Shown: piece after piece, positions 5,517 through 35,466 of the stretch
Position numbering within the stretch: position 1 is the first letter of the stretch
Layout: each line of letters opens with the position of its first letter
NCBI GenBank assembly: GCA_949744505.1
Contig: CATJXY010000025.1
Location: forward strand, 1 to 38,276
Length of the DNA stretch: 38,276 nucleotides
Origin: an uncultured Erysipelotrichaceae bacterium
GTDB taxonomy: Bacteria > Bacillota_I > Bacilli_A > Erysipelotrichales > Erysipelotrichaceae
Direction of reading: 5' to 3'
Translations under genes and position numbers: made by a program
The notes under the pieces: generated by a model
Seen by the model: the letters and a program-made list of their open reading frames with translations, nothing else
Databases searched by the model: none
What the model was told of the DNA's origin: nothing

Positions 5517-6356
5517 TTAATCTTTTTTCTTTTTTGTCTTTCTTCTTTTAATTCCGGCTTCTTCAAGTTCTTCATCTGAAGCATACTCATCGCCTCTTAG
5601 CTTCATTTTCCAGAAAAACTTACAAAGACCGATGCTTAACTGATATAAGAAAATCATCGGAATTGCGACCATAACTTGCGAAACAATATCCGGTGGAGTA
5701 ATAATAGCTGCAACAAAGAAAATCACAACAATTGCAACAGCTCTTCCTTTCATGAGCCATTTTGGTTTTAATAAACCAAACTGTGTCAGAATAACCGATA
5801 CAACCGGCATTTCAAATACTGCACCGAAAACAACATATACAGTCAAAACAAAAGTCAGATAATTTTCAATCGAAATCGAAGCCTGAATGTACTCCGTTCC
5901 TTGTAGACTGTTTAAAAATCCGAGCATGAACGGCATTGAAATCAAATGGGCAAATGCCACACCAATCACAAAGCATATCAAACCGGCTACCATTGCAACA
6001 AAGAAAAAGAAATTTTCGCCTTGTTTCAATCCCGGTTTAATAAAAGCCCAAATCTCATACATCAAAACAGGAAATGTTATCACGATAGCTCCCAACAATC
6101 CGACTTTCATATATTGCACAAGCAATTCTTGAGGAGTAAGGAATACAAATGCATATCCTTGCTCAAGCCCCATTGATGTCAGCAAGCTAACAATATCCGC
6201 TGCCTTGTTAAAACACAGAAGAAAACCGACAAGTAAGAAAACAACACAGATAATGATTCGGTTTCTGAGTTCACGAAGATGATCATTTAAAGACATGACA
6301 TCTTCTTTGTTCTCATTTGCCTCCTCCGTCTTTTTCTTTTCCTTGTTCTCACTCAT
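5517..6356 (-). CDS. tatC: Twin-arginine translocase subunit TatC
   Basis: This 279-aa protein with six transmembrane helices is the core of the Tat export system and recognises RR signal peptides. The conserved TatC entry motif LNDHLRELRNR (about 23-33) precedes the first helix. The family's conserved PFxPAD-region equivalents and the late VAIPMIFLYQLSIGL helix are present. The N-terminus carries an extra Lys/Glu-rich tail of about 20 residues, and the C-terminus ends in a poly-basic tail. The gene lies 19 bases after tatA and is third in the operon. Its ribosome binding site is weak, so coupling to tatA translation or use of the ATG at residue 21 is possible. Confidence 0.95.
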   Translation of the reverse strand: MSENKEKKKTEEANENKEDVMSLNDHLRELRNRIIICVVFLLVGFLLCFNKAADIVSLLTSMGLEQGYAFVFLTPQELLVQYMKVGLLGAIVITFPVLMYEIWAFIKPGLKQGENFFFFVAMVAGLICFVIGVAFAHLISMPFMLGFLNSLQGTEYIQASISIENYLTFVLTVYVVFGAVFEMPVVSVILTQFGLLKPKWLMKGRAVAIVVIFFVAAIITPPDIVSQVMVAIPMIFLYQLSIGLCKFFWKMKLRGDEYASDEELEEAGIKRRKTKKKKD

Positions 6357-6375
6357 AGGGTTCTAATCCACAATC

Positions 6376-6531
6376 CTATTCTTCTGTATCTTCGTCAGAA
6401 TCATTGACACCGTCTTTAAAATTCTTAATTGATTTTCCTAGCATCTTGCTAAGCTTTGGAAGCTGTTTTGGTCCAAAAATAATAATTACGACCAATAAGA
6501 TCATTAATAATTCTGTGTGTCCGAGTCTCAT
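6376..6531 (-). CDS. tatA: Small TatA-type translocase subunit (51 aa)
   Basis: This short gene is easily missed. The product begins MRLGHTELLMILLVVIIIFG, then PKQLPKLSKMLGKSIKNFKD and an acidic tail. This is the TatA plan: one N-terminal helix, the FGP/LP hinge at about 20-25, an amphipathic helix with the conserved KS-K-F-K pattern, and a charged end. TatA oligomerises to form the passage for folded RR-signal proteins. AGGAGG lies 8 bases upstream of the ATG. It sits between the longer TatB-like gene and tatC, with gaps of 19 bases on each side, so all three are co-transcribed. Confidence 0.9.
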   Translation of the reverse strand: MRLGHTELLMILLVVIIIFGPKQLPKLSKMLGKSIKNFKDGVNDSDEDTEE

Positions 6532-6550
6532 ATTTCTTTCCTCCTATTAA

Positions 6551-6970
6551 TTACGCCTGCTTGGCATCATTTTCAATCTTAACTTCTTCAGTTTGAGCTT
6601 CTTCCTTTTGAATTTCACTTAAAGAAAGCTCCGCTGTTTCTTCATCTGAATTAACAATTGCTGTTGCAACCGATTCTTCTTTCTTAGCCTTACCGATATC
6701 ATTGAATGACTTTGTCATATCATTCACAGTTCCTTTTATCTCCTTTTGAATTTCATTGATTGGCTCAACCGCATCTTTTAATGGTTGTGCCACTTCATTC
6801 AAAGGTTCTACAATATTTTCTTTGATATCATTGGAAAGATCATTACTATATTTTTTTATCTCGCCCAAAGCCTGTCCCAATTTTTTTGCATATACCGGCA
6901 ACTTATCCGGTCCCAAAACAATCAAGGCAACAACGACAATGACGACAAATTCCCAAATGCCTATCTTCAT
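6551..6970 (-). CDS. TatB-like Sec-independent translocase protein
   Basis: The 139-aa product has one N-terminal helix (about 4-20) and the hinge VLGPDKLPVYAKKLGQALGE, then an amphipathic helix and a long acidic tail (about 95-139). LGPxKLP followed by a long, non-TatA tail fits TatB better than TatA. TatB forms the RR-signal receptor with TatC. Many Bacillota have only a bifunctional TatA plus TatC, so a separate TatB-like protein beside a 51-aa TatA is notable. It is the first gene of the operon, with AGGAGA upstream and its own extended -10 promoter. It could also be a second, longer TatA. Confidence 0.8.
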   Translation of the reverse strand: MKIGIWEFVVIVVVALIVLGPDKLPVYAKKLGQALGEIKKYSNDLSNDIKENIVEPLNEVAQPLKDAVEPINEIQKEIKGTVNDMTKSFNDIGKAKKEESVATAIVNSDEETAELSLSEIQKEEAQTEEVKIENDAKQA

Positions 6971-6994
6971 ATTCTTTCTCCTTTATTCTCCCCT

Positions 6995-7022
6995 ATTATA
7001 TCAAAAAACTCACAAATGTACA
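6995..7022 (-). promoter_or_regulatory. Promoter of the tat operon
   Basis: On the minus strand an extended -10, TGATATAAT (6995-7003), has a TGTACA -35 (7017-7022) at 16 bases. It lies 24 bases before the TatB-like ATG. Confidence 0.6.
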
Positions 7023-7068
7023 GTCAATATTTTAATTTTTACAAAATTTTCTAACAAAATATCAACCA

Positions 7069-8394
7069 TTACGATAATTGAATTCCACATTTAACTCCCG
7101 GAATCAGTTTACTGATCTTTTTTTGAAGTTGGCTTGCTCGTTCAAGATGATTCTCATCATGAACCAATAAATTAAATCGCCAGTTACGAATCACTTTATT
7201 CCCAAATCTCACCTTGGATCTTCCTACCATTTTAAGCAACTCTTCCTCATCACTTTGATCCCCCATCTGATTATAATCAATACGCATTAACGTTTGAATC
7301 CCATATGTTCTCACAATATTCATAATCAAATCAAAACCATACCATGTATTTACTTTTGATTGCTGAACAATTAAAATATCATCTTTATGGAAAAGATCAA
7401 TTTCAAGTTCAAATTCATTCAATTCCACTCCCTGATATTCCAATCCTTTCAGCATCCGATATTGAGCCAAGAAATGAGTTTCGGTATTCACTGTATCCAA
7501 CTGTTCGCTCATCTCTTCAAGCACCCTTTCGGCTTCTTGTCGATCAAGTTCAACATAATCAATTTGCTCATTCGCATGATTCCAAATATCTTTATACTGT
7601 TTCGGTGTTTCATTGAAAGCTTCCATAAAATACTTATAGAAATACTTGGAATCACTGAATCCACATTCTTCAATAATTCTGGAATGACTGTAATCCGTAA
7701 ACAGTAACAATTCCTCCGCTTTCATAAGCCTCAATTGATTCACACACTCAAGAAAAGTTTGACTGTTCATCTGTTTCCACAATGTTGCAAAATAACTTTT
7801 CTGCATATGTTCTGTTTCAGCTGCTGACTGTAATGTCAACTTTTCTTTTAAATGATTTTGAATATAATCCATGATTCGATAGTAACGCTCCACCGAATCT
7901 TCATTCACATAGCGAAATAAATGGTCTTTATAATTCAAAGAGTTATACTCAGAAATCAAGGTGGAAATAATTTTTTCCTGTAACATTTCTAATTCTTGAA
8001 AACTCGCCTCTTTTTTATTGTACACATAGCCTTGAAGCAAATCTTTAAGGAACACACAATCACGATAAACTCCTTCAATTTCTTTTTCCTGATCCAATCC
8101 TCCAACCGAATCAATTAACTCTAAATTACGATAAACTCCCTTCCCGTACTTTTCAATCAAATCACAAGAGATCTTGATGATTTCAACGATACATCCTTGT
8201 TTTGATGAGAGTTGATATACTTGATTTTGATTTACAAAAAATGCATTTCCTTCTTTGAACTGAGAAAGTTGATTAAAACGCTTCACATCACAACTACCAC
8301 TTAAAACAAATACGATTAAAATACCTTTGTGATTGCACTCCAAAGGCATTTTCTTTAATTTTATTAATTGGCATTGAAATGATTCTTGTTTCAT
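7069..8394 (-). CDS. AraC-family transcriptional regulator with cupin-like N-terminus
   Basis: The 441-aa product has an N-terminal sensor segment resembling a cupin (residues about 15-90; FVLSGSCDVKRFNQLSQFKE). A central AraC-type double helix-turn-helix follows (about 170-270; LKEKLTLQSAAETEHMQKSY and SRIIEECGFSDSKYFYKYFM, ending NETPKQYKDIW). A further 170-residue C-terminal part has an unclear role. The start chosen is the ATG at 8394, with AGAGGA upstream; an ATG 11 codons earlier lacks a ribosome binding site. It begins 49 bases after the UPF0210 gene stop and may share that transcript. The ligand is unknown. It is longer than the usual 280-300 aa of the family. Confidence 0.85.
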   Translation of the reverse strand: MKQESFQCQLIKLKKMPLECNHKGILIVFVLSGSCDVKRFNQLSQFKEGNAFFVNQNQVYQLSSKQGCIVEIIKISCDLIEKYGKGVYRNLELIDSVGGLDQEKEIEGVYRDCVFLKDLLQGYVYNKKEASFQELEMLQEKIISTLISEYNSLNYKDHLFRYVNEDSVERYYRIMDYIQNHLKEKLTLQSAAETEHMQKSYFATLWKQMNSQTFLECVNQLRLMKAEELLLFTDYSHSRIIEECGFSDSKYFYKYFMEAFNETPKQYKDIWNHANEQIDYVELDRQEAERVLEEMSEQLDTVNTETHFLAQYRMLKGLEYQGVELNEFELEIDLFHKDDILIVQQSKVNTWYGFDLIMNIVRTYGIQTLMRIDYNQMGDQSDEEELLKMVGRSKVRFGNKVIRNWRFNLLVHDENHLERASQLQKKISKLIPGVKCGIQLS

Positions 8395-8443
8395 GATAAT
8401 CCTCTTCTTTTCATTTGTTGTATACAAAAGGAATGCATGTCCT

Positions 8444-9802
8444 TTAATTCTTTAAACTTTGCATCGGTGAAGGAATCTTTCCACCACGATTGATCATGAT
8501 TGAACAATCTCCCTCATTCACTTTCATGATCGGACCACTGCCCAAAAGTCCTCCGAATACCAGTTCCTCACCACTTTGCTTCCCGATTGCCGGGATCAAT
8601 CGAACTGCGGTCGTCTTAGAATTGACCATACCGATCGCCATCTCATCGGCAATAATTCCACTGATTGTTGCTGCGGAAGTTTCTCCGGGAATAACAATCA
8701 TATCCAATCCGACACTACATACCGCAGTCATTGCTTCTAACTTCTCAATCGTTAGAGATTGATTGCGTGCAGCTTTGATCATTCCCGCATCCTCACTTAC
8801 CGGAATAAATGCACCGGAAAGTCCACCGACACTGCTGCTTGCCATGACTCCGCCTTTTTTTACCGCATCATTAAGCATTGCCAAACATGCAGTCGTACCC
8901 GGAACACCGCAATTGGAAAGTCCCATTTCCTCTAATATATACGCAACTGAATCTCCTACTGCCGGAGTCGGTGCCAAGGAAAGATCAACAATTCCAAACG
9001 GAACATTTAAACGCTTACTTGCTTCACTACCGACTAATTGCCCCATGCGAGTAATTTTAAATGCAGTCTTTTTAATGATATCCGCAAGTTCATTCATCGG
9101 TAAATCTTTAGGAGCTTTCTTCAAAGCACTTCTGACTACTCCCGGACCACTGACACCAACATTGATGACACAATCCGCTTCTCCTACACCATGAAAAGCT
9201 CCCGCCATAAACGGATTATCTTCCGGAGCATTACAAAAAACCACTAGCTTAGCCGCTCCGATACAATTGTTATCCTTTGTCAGTTCGGCTGCCTCTTTGA
9301 TCTTTTCTCCCAACATTTTTACTGCATCCATATTAATTCCCGCTTTAGTACTGCCTACATTGACAGAGGCACAAACACGATCTGTCATAGACAAAGCACG
9401 TGGAATTGATTCAATCAATTCACGATCACCGGCACTGAATCCTTTTTGAACTAATGCACTATATCCACCAATAAAATTAACATCCAATTCTTCTGCACAC
9501 TTTTGAAGTGTCAAAGCATACTTAACGGGATCTCCACCACTGACACCTAATAAAATCGCAATCGGTGTCACAGAAATTCTTTTGTTGATAATGGGAATCC
9601 CATATTCCTTTTCAATATCACAACCAACCGAAACCAAATTCCCGGCTAAACGTTTAACTTTCTTATATATTTTTTCACATGAACGATCAATATCACTATC
9701 CGCACAATCAATTAAAGAGATTCCCATTGTAATGGTTCGTACATCCAAGTTTTCTTCATCGATCATTTTAATCGTTTCTAAGATTTCATTTGCATTCAAC
9801 AT
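8444..9802 (-). CDS. UPF0210 / PFL-family protein (DUF711)
   Basis: The 452-aa soluble protein matches the UPF0210 family in length and in Gly-rich segments such as [20 protein letters not shown]-type endings, with [13 protein letters not shown] near the C-terminus and [20 protein letters not shown] near residue 120. Its function is not established. The fold has been likened to the pyruvate formate-lyase barrel, hence the PFL name, but there is no glycyl-radical RVxGY motif here, so no such activity is claimed. It starts 8 bases after the ACT-domain gene. That pairing is conserved across many bacteria, which suggests the ACT protein senses a small molecule for it. Confidence 0.9.
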
Positions 9803-23481: not shown

Positions 23482-24285
23482 TTATTTTTTAGAAACATTA
23501 TATTTTGGGCCCAATGCCGAATAACGACGACTGATCCACTTACAGATTCCATCCAATCCCGGATAAATCATACGCTCGGAAATATTAATATAATCCAGCT
23601 TATCACGAATTTCCAATTTAATTTCCTTAGGAATGATAATTCGATAATAACACTCGTGATCTTTCAATAAATCCGAAAGCAACACCGAAGAATCAGATAC
23701 AAGTGAAAATAAAGCATATTGATTGGCAATACGATCTAACATACTCGCCGGTTCAAAAAATAGGACAAACGGATCTTTCTGTAACCCTTTTAAAGTTTGA
23801 AAATCACCTATATCTTCTAACATTTCAATCGTGAAACTGCTACTTCTTGATTTCTCCAACATTTCTTTAAGCGGTTGCGGTAATAATTTATGTAGAACCG
23901 TAAAGTCAACACACCAAATGCACCCATCCCGATCATACTCTTCCAAATTTTCTGTCGCAAAATGTGCGGCAACAAGTGGGGAGTACGTCCAGTCCAATAA
24001 CCTTGTCGGCAATCCGTGATGCTGCGCCAAAGAAAGTGTTTGCCAAAAATTCTGATATTGCCCCAAATCCGCATATGCATATTTCTTGAAGTTTCTCATC
24101 AAAGATTCTTCTAAAGTCAAATCATGTGAACAAATTCGATTTAGCTTTGGAAGTAAATCCTCATTTGTATTCGAAACTCCTCGATAGATGAAATTATTGC
24201 GATATCGCATTACTTTTTCATCCCATACATCTTCAAAAATCACTTTTTGAAGTTCATCCCAACTGTGAATCACAATATCTTTCAT
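23482..24285 (-). CDS. FRG-domain protein
   Basis: The product of about 267 aa has the hallmark segments of the FRG domain: FIYRGVSN (here about residues 32-39), AQHHGLPTRLLDWT (about 87-100) and PLVAAHFA. FRG proteins are cytosolic and of unknown activity; some occur in toxin or phage-defence settings. The start at 24285 has GGAG 6 bases upstream; an ATG four codons earlier has poor spacing. It starts within about 25 bases of the prs stop and is probably co-transcribed with it, which is unusual for a possible accessory gene. No partner antitoxin is seen. Confidence 0.8.
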   Translation of the reverse strand: MKDIVIHSWDELQKVIFEDVWDEKVMRYRNNFIYRGVSNTNEDLLPKLNRICSHDLTLEESLMRNFKKYAYADLGQYQNFWQTLSLAQHHGLPTRLLDWTYSPLVAAHFATENLEEYDRDGCIWCVDFTVLHKLLPQPLKEMLEKSRSSSFTIEMLEDIGDFQTLKGLQKDPFVLFFEPASMLDRIANQYALFSLVSDSSVLLSDLLKDHECYYRIIIPKEIKLEIRDKLDYINISERMIYPGLDGICKWISRRYSALGPKYNVSKK

Positions 24286-24307
24286 CTTATTCTCCATTCA
24301 CCGAAAA

Positions 24308-29191: not shown

Positions 29192-30442
29192 TTAACCCTT
29201 TACCCACTTTTTGATTTCATTCATCAACAACTCACCACTACCGGCTGCAAAAGGGCTGCTAAAAGATTCATAAACTTGTTTGCGGAAAGATTCCTCATCC
29301 GGAAGATATAGAAAATATCCATTTGTATATCCGATAAATTCTGAATTTAACTCTTCTTTTATCAAATCGGATAATGTACTAAACAGTTCGCAAGGAACGG
29401 TAATTAAATTAATTTCAGGCAATTTGATCCAAGAGATTGAAAGCATCAGCTTTGATAAGGAAGAAGCTCGCATTGCCGCAAACATATTATTTTGAGCACC
29501 TTCATAAACAGACTTCAAAACACGCAATGCCTGCTCATCCAAATTCATCTTTTTTCCTTCTTCATATTTTGCTTTGGTCTCTTCAAGCTTTCTTGTTGCT
29601 TCCTCAATCGTATCAAATTTACGAGGAGGTAATTCTATTTCTTTTCGTTTGATACACAAAGAGAAATCCTCTTTAAACGGAATCGGTTTGTTAAGCAACT
29701 CTTTCATTTGTTTTGCGACTAATTTACCGAATCGCTCTACCTCTTCAAATCCATTTCCTTTTCTTGTAAAGCGGGTACTCATATTACCACAGCTTCCATT
29801 AACGTAAGCCACTTGTTGATACTCTGGAAATAAAGGTTCAATTGCACCTGGGAAATCCGCAGTAACACAACAATTTTCTTGATTCATCACAGTCGGATGA
29901 CAACTCATCCTCGTCAACAATGCCCGTTTTCCGTCTGCTAATTTAAACTCAATCAAAAGCATGTCCTCATCATAAGGCAAAGAAAGATCATGCCGATCTG
30001 TTCCCAATCCTTCTACTTTTCCTTTTAAAATACGATAAGTAAACGGTTGTAAACATTCCCGTAAATGATTCACTGAATCACTGACTTGATCCGCAATGCA
30101 CTCACAATAGTTGGTATTCACTTCACCGAAAATCGAATCCAGTCCATTTAATGCCCCTTTCGTTGTATCCAAAGTTCCAACAGGACCCGAATGTGTATGT
30201 GTTGCCATAAGCACAATCCGGTCTTTCTTAATTCCCGTTTTTTTCTCAATCATTGTGTACAACAAGTCATCCACTGCAACCAAATCCAGCTGAATAAGCA
30301 AGTTTTCTTCTTCTCCTTTAAACAAGAATAATCTTGTCATTATTGGATCGTGAATTTCATTTGCCCAACGAACTTTCCCAAATCCGGATAAACGCACCGG
30401 TAAAATCGGTGTAATATCCAATCGATCAAACCCACATTTCAT
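29192..30442 (-). CDS. Neutral/alkaline ceramidase-like hydrolase, no signal peptide
   Basis: The 416-aa product resembles the N-terminal domain of neutral/alkaline non-lysosomal ceramidases: GFDRLDITP (4-12), the metal-binding THTHSGP (81-87, His82/His84), CHPT (His182), TADFPGAIE (194-202) and NGSCGNMSTR (215-224). Ceramidases cleave the amide between a fatty acid and sphingoid base. The C-terminal lipid-binding domain of classical enzymes is not evident, and there is no signal sequence, so this one probably works inside the cell on some amide or related bond. The start at 30442 has GGAGG upstream. It follows the luxE-luxC genes on the same strand, 108 bases away, with a possible -10 between. 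Confidence 0.78.
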   Translation of the reverse strand: MKCGFDRLDITPILPVRLSGFGKVRWANEIHDPIMTRLFLFKGEEENLLIQLDLVAVDDLLYTMIEKKTGIKKDRIVLMATHTHSGPVGTLDTTKGALNGLDSIFGEVNTNYCECIADQVSDSVNHLRECLQPFTYRILKGKVEGLGTDRHDLSLPYDEDMLLIEFKLADGKRALLTRMSCHPTVMNQENCCVTADFPGAIEPLFPEYQQVAYVNGSCGNMSTRFTRKGNGFEEVERFGKLVAKQMKELLNKPIPFKEDFSLCIKRKEIELPPRKFDTIEEATRKLEETKAKYEEGKKMNLDEQALRVLKSVYEGAQNNMFAAMRASSLSKLMLSISWIKLPEINLITVPCELFSTLSDLIKEELNSEFIGYTNGYFLYLPDEESFRKQVYESFSSPFAAGSGELLMNEIKKWVKG

Positions 30443-30550
30443 AAGTACTTCCTCCATGAATCTTTTCATTTATTATAAGATATTCATTTCGATTAATCCA
30501 GCCTTCCTTCACTAAGCTGATTCTTAATTCTATCTTTTACGATTCTCTTT

Positions 30551-31822
30551 TTATTCATTTTTAAACTTTTCTATCTTTACAATTCTGGAATATCTGCTTA
30601 AAGGAAATTCTCCATCATGTGAATCAAACACATTTACAGAGGACATATGGGAGACTTGCATGATTCTATTTATCCCACTTTGCACAAACAAATTTACCAA
30701 TCGTTCATGATTCTCTTGAGCACAAATCAATCCGACAGTCTGCAAAATTCCTTTTTTCTCTCTCAAACAGGTTACTATTTCTTTCTCAGGAAGGCATTTT
30801 ACAAGGATTTGATTATGAATGCCTGATCCTTCCAATGTTTTATCTTCTTTCAACAAAATACTGCACGCTTTTCCCCAATAAATCTTGCCTTGATTATTCT
30901 CTTTTTCCATCACCTGACATAGATGATCCGTATATCGGCGCAACATCATCTCGCCCTGTTCATTCATTGATAATCCATCTTTTAAGAAAGCCTTATCTAG
31001 AATCGGCAAAAATTCTTCAATAAACTTTTCAGCCTCAAGCAATGAATCGCTGTTAAGATAAATTACTTGGCAACTGCTACATAAGCGTTGACGGGTCCAA
31101 GCTACATGCTCTGCCAATTCTATCATTTCTTTTTCTTTGTTTTGAAAGTCATCAATATAAACAAAACTGATACGATGTCCCCACTCAATTAATTTGGCAT
31201 TCAACGGTGCCTGTTTACGAATCGCCGCAATAGATTGATCACTGCCCCATATAACCAATCCATCTGCCATCTCAGCCATTTTGAAAATTGCCTGTGAATC
31301 AGAAGAAGGTGTATCAAAAACAATAATATAATCTTTTAGTTTCGGTTCAATTTCAATCAGATGATATAAGATGGAAATCGACAAAGAATGATCCACAGAA
31401 GGCAATTTCAAAATATTGATATTTCCACTCATCAGCCCCTCAAGAACACTATATGCCGGTAATCCATCCTGATTCCCTGCGGCAATGTGAAACAATGTAC
31501 CTAAAGGAACACGCCTCAATTCATAATTTGAATCCGGTTGTATCATTTCGCCAAGTTCCAATTCAACACGTTTTCTTAAATTCTCTTTATCCAAAAGCGG
31601 AAATAACTGCTGTATTGCCTGTATATCTTTCTTTGTTAACTCTTCTTTAAGAAAATCCATTTTCCCCATCACAAAATCTTCTTTACATTTTTCTGCCGCA
31701 TTTAAAACAAGCTCCAAAGCAAGTCGAGGCTTCCTCCTTGTTTCATTGATTTTGCTTTCTAACTCTTTTAGTATTTCATCTTGAAAAGAGGATTCCCAGT
31801 ATTTCCCATCATACAAAATCAT
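30551..31822 (-). CDS. LuxC-like acyl-CoA / acyl-protein reductase
   Basis: The product of about 423 aa has the pattern of the LuxC fatty-acyl reductase family (PF05893): VPLGTLFHIAAGN (about 105-117), the nucleotide-binding area around VFDTPSSDSQAIF (168-180), and RQRLCSSCQVIY (244-255), whose Cys248 or Cys251 would carry the thioester during NADPH-dependent reduction of an acyl thioester to aldehyde. The start codon overlaps the luxE-like stop (ATGA), so the two are made together. No luciferase genes are present, so light emission is not the role. Members of this family in non-luminous bacteria are poorly understood. Confidence 0.85.
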   Translation of the reverse strand: MILYDGKYWESSFQDEILKELESKINETRRKPRLALELVLNAAEKCKEDFVMGKMDFLKEELTKKDIQAIQQLFPLLDKENLRKRVELELGEMIQPDSNYELRRVPLGTLFHIAAGNQDGLPAYSVLEGLMSGNINILKLPSVDHSLSISILYHLIEIEPKLKDYIIVFDTPSSDSQAIFKMAEMADGLVIWGSDQSIAAIRKQAPLNAKLIEWGHRISFVYIDDFQNKEKEMIELAEHVAWTRQRLCSSCQVIYLNSDSLLEAEKFIEEFLPILDKAFLKDGLSMNEQGEMMLRRYTDHLCQVMEKENNQGKIYWGKACSILLKEDKTLEGSGIHNQILVKCLPEKEIVTCLREKKGILQTVGLICAQENHERLVNLFVQSGINRIMQVSHMSSVNVFDSHDGEFPLSRYSRIVKIEKFKNE

Positions 31823-32934
31823 ATCTTCTCCTCCAACTTTTCCTTTGCCGCCGTAGAGCATGTCTTGATATCGGAAACTCCGACACGACCTAAAATCTCA
31901 AGGTATGGATTTGGATTCCCACATCCACACTTTCCCCCATCATGAAGAATTCCCAAATCATCACTCATCACACTGGACAAGGGTGTTCCCTTTATGATCG
32001 GACTCAATAAATTTACAAGTCCTACCTGCCCGTAAGACAACGGCTTCAATGTCTGAGGATCACGTATAATTACATGACTGCTATTGGGAACATGAAAATG
32101 ATGATGAGAACAATCACAGTAAATAACCGGATGCTCAACCGCCCCAAAAAATTCAACAATTTGATCTTCTTTAATTCCTAAAAGCCGTTCAGCCATTTCA
32201 TATAAAACTTCTTTTTCCACTTTCTCTGTATAAAATTGTTTCCATCCCCCACCAAGTAACAGCTTACTACCATGAGGAAGCTTGATTTTCATTCCTGATT
32301 CTTCCATTTTCTTCATCATAAAAAAGGCATAGGATGGAAAACCGATAATCCGAGTCGGAAAATGCGACTTTCCTGCACGACTAAGTGCTTTTATAATTTC
32401 ATCCAACTCTACTTCATATTTTCCATTTTTTATCGTTAAGGCATATGTTTTTTTCAAAGAAGGGGCCATGAAAGATGTTGCATATGCCGTCTTCGAGATG
32501 ACCGCATGATTTGATTTATGAGGTTTATACCCAAGCATAATATAATGACATGGAATGATAGATATCAGTTTTCTTTTCATTACCTGATAGAAAATTGAAA
32601 AAAACGCAATGCTCAATCCACTCCACTCAAATCTTATTTGACTGGCATTGCCACTTGTTCCGGAAGAAGTGACCTGAATTGTTTTTTTCTTTTCCGGCAT
32701 AGAAAAAAGTGTATGCTTTTTAAAAAGTAAAGTGGGAATTGGGGGTATTTTTTCTAAATCGGATATAGAGTGAATCTCATCAATACAACATCCACTTTCT
32801 TTTAAAATCTTATGATATTCTAAACAATGCTTATCATGATAGTGAAGATTCTGTTTCATCGCTTCAATAAAAACTTGTTGTGTTTTTGAATCTTTTTCTT
32901 TTAAATGAAATAGAAGTAAAAATCTTTTATCCAT
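31819..32934 (-). CDS. LuxE-like fatty-acid activating enzyme (acyl-protein synthetase)
   Basis: The 371-aa ANL-related enzyme of the LuxE family (PF04443) has the ATP-binding loop VTSSGTSGNASQIRF (88-102), KCGCGNPNPYLEILGR (about 331-346), and a C-terminal SDIKTC, in which Cys359 sits where LuxE places its acyl-accepting cysteine. LuxE activates a fatty acid as acyl-AMP and hands it on as a thioester to LuxC. It is the first gene, with a TTGTCA/TAAAAT promoter directly upstream and a short leader. Divergent from a TetR gene 246 bases away. Confidence 0.85.
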   Translation of the reverse strand: MDKRFLLLFHLKEKDSKTQQVFIEAMKQNLHYHDKHCLEYHKILKESGCCIDEIHSISDLEKIPPIPTLLFKKHTLFSMPEKKKTIQVTSSGTSGNASQIRFEWSGLSIAFFSIFYQVMKRKLISIIPCHYIMLGYKPHKSNHAVISKTAYATSFMAPSLKKTYALTIKNGKYEVELDEIIKALSRAGKSHFPTRIIGFPSYAFFMMKKMEESGMKIKLPHGSKLLLGGGWKQFYTEKVEKEVLYEMAERLLGIKEDQIVEFFGAVEHPVIYCDCSHHHFHVPNSSHVIIRDPQTLKPLSYGQVGLVNLLSPIIKGTPLSSVMSDDLGILHDGGKCGCGNPNPYLEILGRVGVSDIKTCSTAAKEKLEEKI

Positions 32935-33053: not shown

Positions 33054-33180
33054 ATAGTTTTATCACAAGGATACATTATTCTGCTTACTAACAACGAATA
33101 TTTAAAAAGTTTCTTTTAACCCTTCTCAAAATCGGTCAATCGTTTTATTATACCTTTGATAAATGAATGGAGGTTATGCA

Positions 33181-33792
33181 ATGAATGAAAAGTTTTTTTC
33201 TCTTCCCAAAGAAAAACAACAGGCTATATTGAATGCCGGATATCGTGTTTTTTCACAAAACACCTATAAGAACAGCCCAATGAGTGAAATTGCAGAAGCC
33301 GCAGGCATAAGCAAATCTCTGCTTTTTTATTATTTCCATAATAAAAAAGAATTTTATCTTTTCTTATGGGACATCTGTGCACAAACAACCATTGATTTTT
33401 TAACTAAATTTAATTGTTATAATCAAACCGATCTCTTTGAAAGCATGGAAAGAGGGATATTCGCAAAAATGGAAATCATGCAAAATTTTCCTGATATGGG
33501 GAATTTTACAATCAAAGCATTTTATGAAAAAGATCCCGAAGTCAATGCCGCAATCCAAGAAAGTTATCATCGTTATTTCAATTATAAAGCAGATAAAGCT
33601 CGCTTGAATTTTGATTCGGATCAATTTATACCGGGATTAGATATCACTATGATGTATCAAGAAATGTATTGGGCATCAGAAGGATACCTTTGGGAAAAAG
33701 TACAACAAGGCAATATTGACTATCAAGAATTGGAAAAAGATTTTACAAAGCTATTAAAGTTTTGGAAAAGTGTTTACTTAAGAAAGGAGTAA
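33181..33792 (+). CDS. TetR-family transcriptional regulator
   Basis: The product of about 203 aa has an N-terminal TetR HTH (about 6-50; KQQAILNAGYRVFSQNTYKN, then SEIAEAAGISKSLLFYYFHN) and a helical ligand-binding domain. The start at 33181 has GGAGG 7 bases upstream; the frame can extend six codons but then loses the site. It ends 4 bases before the ABC ATPase gene, so it likely controls its own operon with that exporter. The luxE-luxC unit begins on the other side of the shared intergenic region and may be a second target. Confidence 0.9.
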   Translation: MNEKFFSLPKEKQQAILNAGYRVFSQNTYKNSPMSEIAEAAGISKSLLFYYFHNKKEFYLFLWDICAQTTIDFLTKFNCYNQTDLFESMERGIFAKMEIMQNFPDMGNFTIKAFYEKDPEVNAAIQESYHRYFNYKADKARLNFDSDQFIPGLDITMMYQEMYWASEGYLWEKVQQGNIDYQELEKDFTKLLKFWKSVYLRKE

Positions 33793-33796
33793 TTTT

Positions 33797-34681
33797 ATGG
33801 AAGCTATCAAGATACAAAATTTAACTAAAAATTACGGCAAGGCTCGTGGCATCAATCATATTAATCTAAGTATTGAAGAAGGGGAATTTTTCGGTTTTAT
33901 CGGACCCAACGGTGCCGGAAAATCTACTACGATTCGGACCTTGCTTGGATTAATTCATCCGACTGAGGGGAATGCATTTATTTTTGGTTTAGATATAACG
34001 AAAGACAAAGATAAAATTCTAGAACAAGTAGGATATCTCCCGTCTGACGCATCCTTTTATTCCGGGATGAAAGTAAAGGAACTCTTAAAGCTTTCTGCTG
34101 ATTTAAGAAAAAGAAACTGTGATGAAAACGCCCGCCTGCTTTGTGAAAGGTTACAACTGGATGTAAATCGTAAAATCGAAGATCTGTCTTTTGGAAATCG
34201 AAAGAAAGTTGCCATTATCTGTGCTTTGCAACATGATCCTCGATTATTAATTTTAGATGAACCGACAAGTGGGCTTGATCCGTTAATGCAAATGGAATTT
34301 TTTAAAATTCTCAAAGAAAGAAATGAAAACGGGGTTACAATTTTCCTTTCCAGTCATATTCTGTCTGAAATTCAGCACAATTGTTCTCGTGCAGCCATTA
34401 TTAAGGAAGGCGAAATCATTGTTTCCGATCGAATCGAGGAATTATCAAAAACCAAAGCCAAGAGAATTACAATCCGTGGGGATATTTCATCTTTACCTGA
34501 TTTAAATGGAATTCAAGATAAAATTGACTCTGATAATTCAAGTAGTTTTCTTTACAGCGGGGAATGGAATACTTTACTTCATGCTTTAGCCGGTTGTTCA
34601 ATTACAGATCTTTCGATTATTGAACCGGATCTAGAAGAAATCTTTTACCATTACTATAAAAAGGAGGAAGAAAAACTATGA
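33797..34681 (+). CDS. ABC exporter ATPase (ABC-2 type)
   Basis: The 294-aa product has Walker A GPNGAGKST (36-44), a signature region LSFGNRKKV (about 132-140), Walker B LLILDEPTSGLDPL (about 150-163), and a short C-terminal domain typical of drug/lipid ABC-2 ATPases. It overlaps the permease start by 4 bases. AAGGAG precedes the ATG. Directly downstream of the TetR gene. Confidence 0.93.
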   Translation: MEAIKIQNLTKNYGKARGINHINLSIEEGEFFGFIGPNGAGKSTTIRTLLGLIHPTEGNAFIFGLDITKDKDKILEQVGYLPSDASFYSGMKVKELLKLSADLRKRNCDENARLLCERLQLDVNRKIEDLSFGNRKKVAIICALQHDPRLLILDEPTSGLDPLMQMEFFKILKERNENGVTIFLSSHILSEIQHNCSRAAIIKEGEIIVSDRIEELSKTKAKRITIRGDISSLPDLNGIQDKIDSDNSSSFLYSGEWNTLLHALAGCSITDLSIIEPDLEEIFYHYYKKEEEKL

Positions 34682-35466
34682 CATTAATTAAGCATGAGCT
34701 AAAACAAGGACGATTCTCTTTTCTGATTTGGACAGGTTCTATTTGTTTTCTTCTTCTGATCTGCATATTTTTATTTCCGCAAATCAAAGAACAAATGTCC
34801 GGGGTCAACAAGCTTTTTTCTTCCATGGGAGCTTTCAGTGTTGCCTTTGGAATGGATAAATTGAATTTCGGAACATTTATCGGATTTTATGCCGTTGAAT
34901 GCGGAAATATTCTCGGTTTAGGGGGTGCCTTATATGCTTCGGTCTGTGCTGCCAATATCCTATGTAAAGAAGAAAAAGAGAGAACATCAGAATTTCTGCT
35001 GACCCATCCAATCAAAAGAACTCATATTCTATCCAGTAAATTAATTGCGGTTATCATTCAAATTATTTCAATGAACGGAATTATCTTTATGCTTGTAATT
35101 CTTTCTACATTATGGATTCAAGAACCCATTCCTTGGTCACAATTAACTCTTATACATTTAGCCTATTTTATTTTACAAATTGAATTAGCCGGTATATGCT
35201 TTGGATTTTCAGCTTTTATTAGAAAAAACGGTCTATCTATGGGTCTTGGAATTGCCTTGATGATGTATTTTTTAAATTTAATCGCAAACATGACAGAGAG
35301 TGTAAAATTTTTGAAATTATTTACTCCTTTTGGATATTGCGAAAGTGCGGATATTATTGCAAGCACTGCTCTTGACTTACCGAAAATAATCATTGGTTTA
35401 TGCTTTGCAACAATCGCAATCCTTCTTGCAACCTATAAATACTGTAAAAAAGATATTTATGCATAA
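34678..35466 (+). CDS. ABC-2 exporter permease
   Basis: The 262-aa membrane protein has six helices (about 17-38, 60-82, 107-130, 140-165, 172-195 and 230-252) and the N-terminal LIKHELKQGRFSFLIWTG common in ABC-2 permeases. It forms an exporter with the ATPase whose 3' end it overlaps. Cargo is unknown; the ABC-2 group moves drugs, lipids and peptides. Its neighbourhood suggests a hydrophobic compound, by inference only. Confidence 0.88.
   Translation: MTLIKHELKQGRFSFLIWTGSICFLLLICIFLFPQIKEQMSGVNKLFSSMGAFSVAFGMDKLNFGTFIGFYAVECGNILGLGGALYASVCAANILCKEEKERTSEFLLTHPIKRTHILSSKLIAVIIQIISMNGIIFMLVILSTLWIQEPIPWSQLTLIHLAYFILQIELAGICFGFSAFIRKNGLSMGLGIALMMYFLNLIANMTESVKFLKLFTPFGYCESADIIASTALDLPKIIIGLCFATIAILLATYKYCKKDIYA

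Follow-up and report, generated by a model that had tools for sequence, protein, structure and literature searches.

The window analysed here is a stretch of 38,276 nucleotides (contig CATJXY010000025.1, assembly GCA_949744505.1) from the 1.85-Mb draft genome (G000) of an uncultured Erysipelotrichaceae bacterium. Three intact genes lie together on its minus strand, and they encode a LuxE-like acyl-activating enzyme, a LuxC-like acyl reductase, and a hydrolase related to neutral ceramidases. An earlier note on this DNA had joined them in a single route of lipid salvage or signalling. The analysis reported below supports a conserved LuxE–LuxC pair, beside which the ceramidase-like gene looks like a chance neighbour. 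The features concerned are the following:

31819-32934, minus strand: LuxE-like acyl-protein synthetase, 371 amino acids (PF04443, 137.6 bits in Pfam)
30551-31822, minus strand: LuxC-like acyl-protein thioester reductase, 423 amino acids (PF05893, 183.4 bits in Pfam)
30440-30550, minus strand: LuxC–hydrolase gap of 111 nucleotides, with a ribosome-binding site, GGAGGAAG, close upstream of the ATG at 30439
29192-30439, minus strand: neutral-ceramidase-fold hydrolase, predicted zinc amidase, 415 amino acids from its likely start (PF04734 and fold model)
33163-35466, plus strand: TetR/ABC-2 genes

The layout is as the earlier note had described it: the ATG of LuxC overlaps the LuxE stop codon by 4 nucleotides, and the hydrolase follows downstream on the same strand. 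The motifs SSGTSG, RQRLCSSC, and THTHSGP are present, as is a cysteine near the C-terminus of LuxE (C359), and no luciferase was recognised among the larger open reading frames (ORFs) of the window. The open frame of the hydrolase reaches 30469, beyond its likely start; the true start is probably the ATG at 30439, with its ribosome-binding site, GGAGGAAG, just ahead of it. LuxC and the hydrolase are then separated by about 111 nucleotides and do not overlap tightly.

LuxE and LuxC have the features of a fatty-acid reductase, namely membership of both families, both acyl cysteines, and adjacent partner genes. In Photobacterium phosphoreum, the acyl sites are Cys364 of LuxE and Cys286 of LuxC (PMC8301110). 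The acyl-carrier Cys359 of the window LuxE aligns opposite Cys364 (7xc6_E), and Cys248 of LuxC, within RQRLCSSC, aligns with the cysteine of YDQQACFSTQ in 7xc6_A; each is invariant across all 70 sequences compared. The ATP-binding motif of LuxE is TSGTSG. In addition, C275, H281, C336, and C338 are each conserved (70/70) in the Firmicutes LuxE family, and this tetrad may form a zinc-like site. Against the NCBIfam equivalogs, the window LuxE scores 92.2 bits (cut-off 550) and LuxC 61.6 bits (cut-off 750); with these scores and no luciferase recognised, the pair is not a member of the luxCDABE bioluminescence system.

The pairing itself extends well beyond the window. A LuxC alignment scanned over one genome per species gave 73 loci, mainly from rumen and gut Firmicutes but also from Anaeroplasma and others, environmental bacteria included. 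LuxE immediately precedes LuxC, in the same orientation, in 72 analysed loci (a tally in which the window is counted and two contigs appear twice), most commonly with a 4-nucleotide overlap; in one further locus it lies three ORFs upstream, and a short contig (L070) has no LuxE. Taken together, alignments and gene order support LuxE and LuxC as a conserved, luciferase-free unit that would use the acyl-transfer cysteines of fatty-acid reductases. The surroundings of the pair vary, and no third partner gene recurs around it across lineages in the 73-locus survey. Genes named by eye as a short-chain dehydrogenase (SDR), an iron-type dehydrogenase, a methyltransferase, and a CorA-like protein lie upstream of the pair in 7-12 loci; because they are confined to a single lineage, they are read as local synteny and were rejected as partners. 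The TetR/ABC-2 exporter, which the earlier note had thought able to move or sense the product, was also rejected as a partner: it is present on the plus strand but occupies only scattered positions across LuxC loci and is not a conserved neighbour of the pair.

In the host family, LuxE is rare: PF04443 matches were obtained in 6 of 145 genomes, and only three of these six (G000, G005, and G137) contain a near full-length protein. In a quick LuxE+LuxC tree, the sequences from these three genomes did not group together, which would speak against vertical inheritance of the pair in the family, but the branches are long and the joins unsure. A search for phage carriage gave one partial match among viral contigs. 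Relatives were also seen on plasmids. A cold-seep Chloroflexota plasmid (L176, CP069395.1, 6001-8402) has a LuxE–LuxC pair near a heliorhodopsin gene, annotated as acyl-protein synthetase and acyl-CoA reductase and again overlapping by 4 nucleotides. On a conjugative Salmonella plasmid (L177, CP053580.1, 6965-11842), a gene of the LuxE family (32% identity) precedes genes for an AMP-binding protein and a member of the phenylacetate-CoA ligase family.

The third gene belongs to a different fold. The hydrolase matches PF04734 over its N-terminal half (41.1 bits in Pfam; cut-off 32.1), and its AlphaFold model, built with 20 aligned sequences (predicted local distance difference test, pLDDT, 92.6; predicted template modelling score, pTM, 0.90), matches neutral ceramidases with Z-scores of 37.4 (2zws), 37.0 (2zxc), and 35.7 (4wgk) over 374-380 residues. 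This match spans nearly the whole protein, with no domain beyond the catalytic one. A phmmer alignment to 4wgk, with the chain offset set by structural alignment, places H81, H83, R149, and H181 opposite human H194, H196, R257, and H303; across the relatives, these four positions vary little or not at all. Apart from His196, the aligned histidines presumably have a role in holding zinc. In the human enzyme, His196 and Arg257 have been named as critical for catalysis (PMC6952831). The earlier description of the gene as ceramidase-like is borne out, and the model supports a neutral-ceramidase fold in which the zinc and catalytic residues would be kept. The protein scores 18.3 bits against the NCBIfam neutral-ceramidase equivalog, the cut-off of which is 1200. 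Its family has three invariant arginines, R149, R223, and R226, which would suit an anionic or phosphorylated substrate.

The earlier note had looked to a recurrent luxE–luxC–ceramidase cluster as support for a three-gene system, and to genes that are not neighbours in related genomes as evidence against it. The second outcome was found for the hydrolase. A profile built from the hydrolase ORFs of 35 loci detected no such gene in any other LuxC locus of the 73-locus survey, and a search with the single sequence agreed. Of 49 genomes with LuxE–LuxC, two gave a weak PF04734 match and none a match above the curated cut-off, and in G005 LuxE–LuxC and the hydrolase are on different contigs. The three-gene lipid-salvage system was rejected on these neighbourhood and co-occurrence searches; the LuxE–LuxC reductase pair with its conserved cysteines stands, without the hydrolase as its partner.

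Relatives of the hydrolase keep other company. A gene for a sugar isomerase (SIS) domain protein, a mannose-type phosphotransferase system (PTS), or a NagA-like protein lies no more than four genes away in 26 of 34 hydrolase-relative loci, compared with 1 of the 73 LuxC loci. The SIS gene immediately adjoins the hydrolase in 12 of the 34, including all six closest relatives; the SIS proteins are of the PRK02947 type, and the SIS, PTS, and NagA domains were confirmed by separate domain checks. The window genome itself contains a paralog (L152, G000:C43:74000-90000, 6337-8972) in the order RpiR – hydrolase – SIS. At another locus (L154, 1221-6439), an apparent operon has an RpiR regulator and then PTS genes in the order IIC-IID-SIS-hydrolase-IIA, the clearest sugar context seen for the family. 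A third ceramidase-fold copy in the window genome is found on contig C34 (L148). GntR-type regulator genes often adjoin the hydrolase relatives. In the window, a 21-codon ORF, MNKKRIVKDRIKNQLSEGRLD (30493-30558, minus strand), overlaps the LuxC stop codon and by eye looks like the beginning of such a GntR-type protein, possibly by chance. Literature searches, from which subscription papers were mostly absent, returned neither sugar-linked ceramidase homologs nor a stand-alone LuxE–LuxC pair in Firmicutes.

We consider it likely that the locus brings together, by chance, two independent modules: an autonomous LuxE–LuxC fatty-acid reductase and an amidase of the amino-sugar type. In the first, LuxE would use ATP to activate a carboxylic acid to acyl-AMP and load the acyl group on Cys359; the acyl group would then pass to Cys248 of LuxC, where NAD(P)H would reduce it to the aldehyde. 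Homology, conserved cysteines, and conserved pairing were observed; that the substrate is long-chain, and what becomes of the aldehyde, is presumed. The second module would be an intracellular zinc amidase of neutral-ceramidase fold, from a family active in sugar catabolism. Its most likely reaction would be the N-deacylation of an amino sugar, probably a sugar phosphate imported by the PTS, ahead of the step catalysed by a SIS-domain isomerase or deaminase. The fold, the catalytic residues, and the genomic partners were observed; the substrate is inferred. Tentatively, this branch of the ceramidase fold in gut Firmicutes may be an undescribed class of intracellular zinc enzymes that N-deacylate amino sugars or amino-sugar phosphates in concert with PRK02947-type SIS isomerases and mannose-type PTS, with the window hydrolase as a displaced member. 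Since the relatives of this hydrolase lie beside genes for sugar uptake and sugar isomerases, it is judged to be next to LuxE–LuxC by chance and is probably functionally unrelated to the pair.

Several points weigh against this interpretation. No sugar gene was found within four genes of the window hydrolase, which shares only 30-37% identity with the nearest of its relatives, so that its substrate could have changed; in the tree it is nearest to the SIS-linked sequences, in an unsettled placement. Most of the 34 loci, which exclude the window, belong to a single taxonomic family, and the control set of 73 LuxC loci was drawn from other genomes. The near-absence of PF04734 from the 49 genomes calls for caution: the model is a poor detector of this subfamily, scoring the window gene at 31.6 bits in the genome scan, and the count alone would therefore not decide the question of partnership, although the profile search of the LuxC loci likewise came up empty. 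Finally, since the hydrolase lies on the same strand as LuxC, about 111 nucleotides away, and no terminator-like site was found in the gap, co-transcription of the two genes is possible.

This last arrangement would fit a lipid-amide pathway, with a fatty acid released by the hydrolase, activated by LuxE, and reduced by LuxC to give a long-chain aldehyde. The chemistry of LuxE and LuxC fits, and so do the ceramidase fold and its catalytic residues. However, the hydrolase is missing from other LuxC loci and nearly absent from the genomes with the pair, its family travels with sugar genes, and G005 has the genes on separate contigs; such a pathway is highly improbable. Another proposal concerns only the pair, the aldehyde of which, or an alcohol made from it, would feed the ether or plasmalogen-type lipids of anaerobes. 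Carriers of LuxE–LuxC are mostly gut anaerobes, and DUF2229 (PF09989), a domain which we take to be associated with the plasmalogen synthase PlsA, is found in 37 of 52 of their genomes, including that of the window, a proportion for which there is no background rate for comparison. The PF09989 proteins are often of PlsA size (about 1000-1500 amino acids). However, the domain is missing from the other 15 genomes, and no lipid-synthesis gene is conserved near the pair. Moreover, in the known PlsA route diacyl lipids are reduced directly (PMC9702350), a reaction that does not require a free aldehyde. A role in ether-lipid synthesis appears unlikely. It is also somewhat unlikely that the pair reduces a short-chain, branched, or aromatic acid in place of a fatty acid, serving, for instance, as an electron sink or in detoxification; pointing this way, both proteins fall far under the NCBIfam long-chain equivalog cut-offs, and the Cys/His tetrad of LuxE, the cysteines of which are missing from marine LuxE (7xc6_E), resembles the C...H...C.C pattern of the PaaK-type phenylacetate-CoA ligase 9s3l. 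Two adjacent but independent modules remain the preferred reading of the locus.

Elsewhere in the window, a gene for a protein that by eye is FRG-domain-like (RGVSN...QHHGLPTRLLDWT; 23482-24297, minus strand) lies beside prs and glmU.

More generally, the aldehyde-making half of bioluminescence emerges as a widespread stand-alone module of anaerobes from gut and rumen, Lachnoclostridium phytofermentans among them, and its distribution in such organisms makes its role directly testable. Of the two leads, the ceramidase-fold family with its sugar-linked genes is the more interesting. The comparison of the hydrolase with its relatives suggests that sphingolipids may not be the substrates at all of gut Firmicutes proteins annotated as 'ceramidase', in which case claims of microbial sphingolipid turnover that rely on this annotation alone would need correcting.

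Three known systems offer a comparison. The window pair resembles LuxC–LuxE of P. phosphoreum (PDB 7xc6) in its families, its acyl cysteines, and the co-encoding of the two partners. It differs in the order of the genes (E then C, with a 4-nucleotide overlap), in the absence of LuxD, LuxA, and LuxB, in the length of LuxC (423 amino acids versus 477 in 7xc6_A), and in a LuxE that keeps C275, H281, C336, and C338. With the bacterial (2zws, 2zxc) and human (4wgk) neutral ceramidases, the hydrolase has in common the whole catalytic-domain fold and the four aligned residues, at about 18% identity. However, it stops after the catalytic domain (residues 1-415 of the model correspond to 103-616 of the longer 4wgk chain), no signal peptide was seen in it, and its relatives sit in sugar loci. 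In the N-acetylgalactosamine (aga) pathway of E. coli, the SIS-domain protein AgaS has been proposed to act as a galactosamine-6-phosphate deaminase/isomerase once the sugar has entered through the PTS and been deacetylated (PMC3668189). The window hydrolase itself is without PTS or SIS partners; in the loci of its relatives, the SIS protein is of the PRK02947 subfamily and the amidase has a ceramidase fold, unlike the amidohydrolases NagA and AgaA. These loci nevertheless share with aga the layout of PTS, amidase, and SIS isomerase and, by analogy, the hydrolase family would provide the N-deacylase of a similar pathway.
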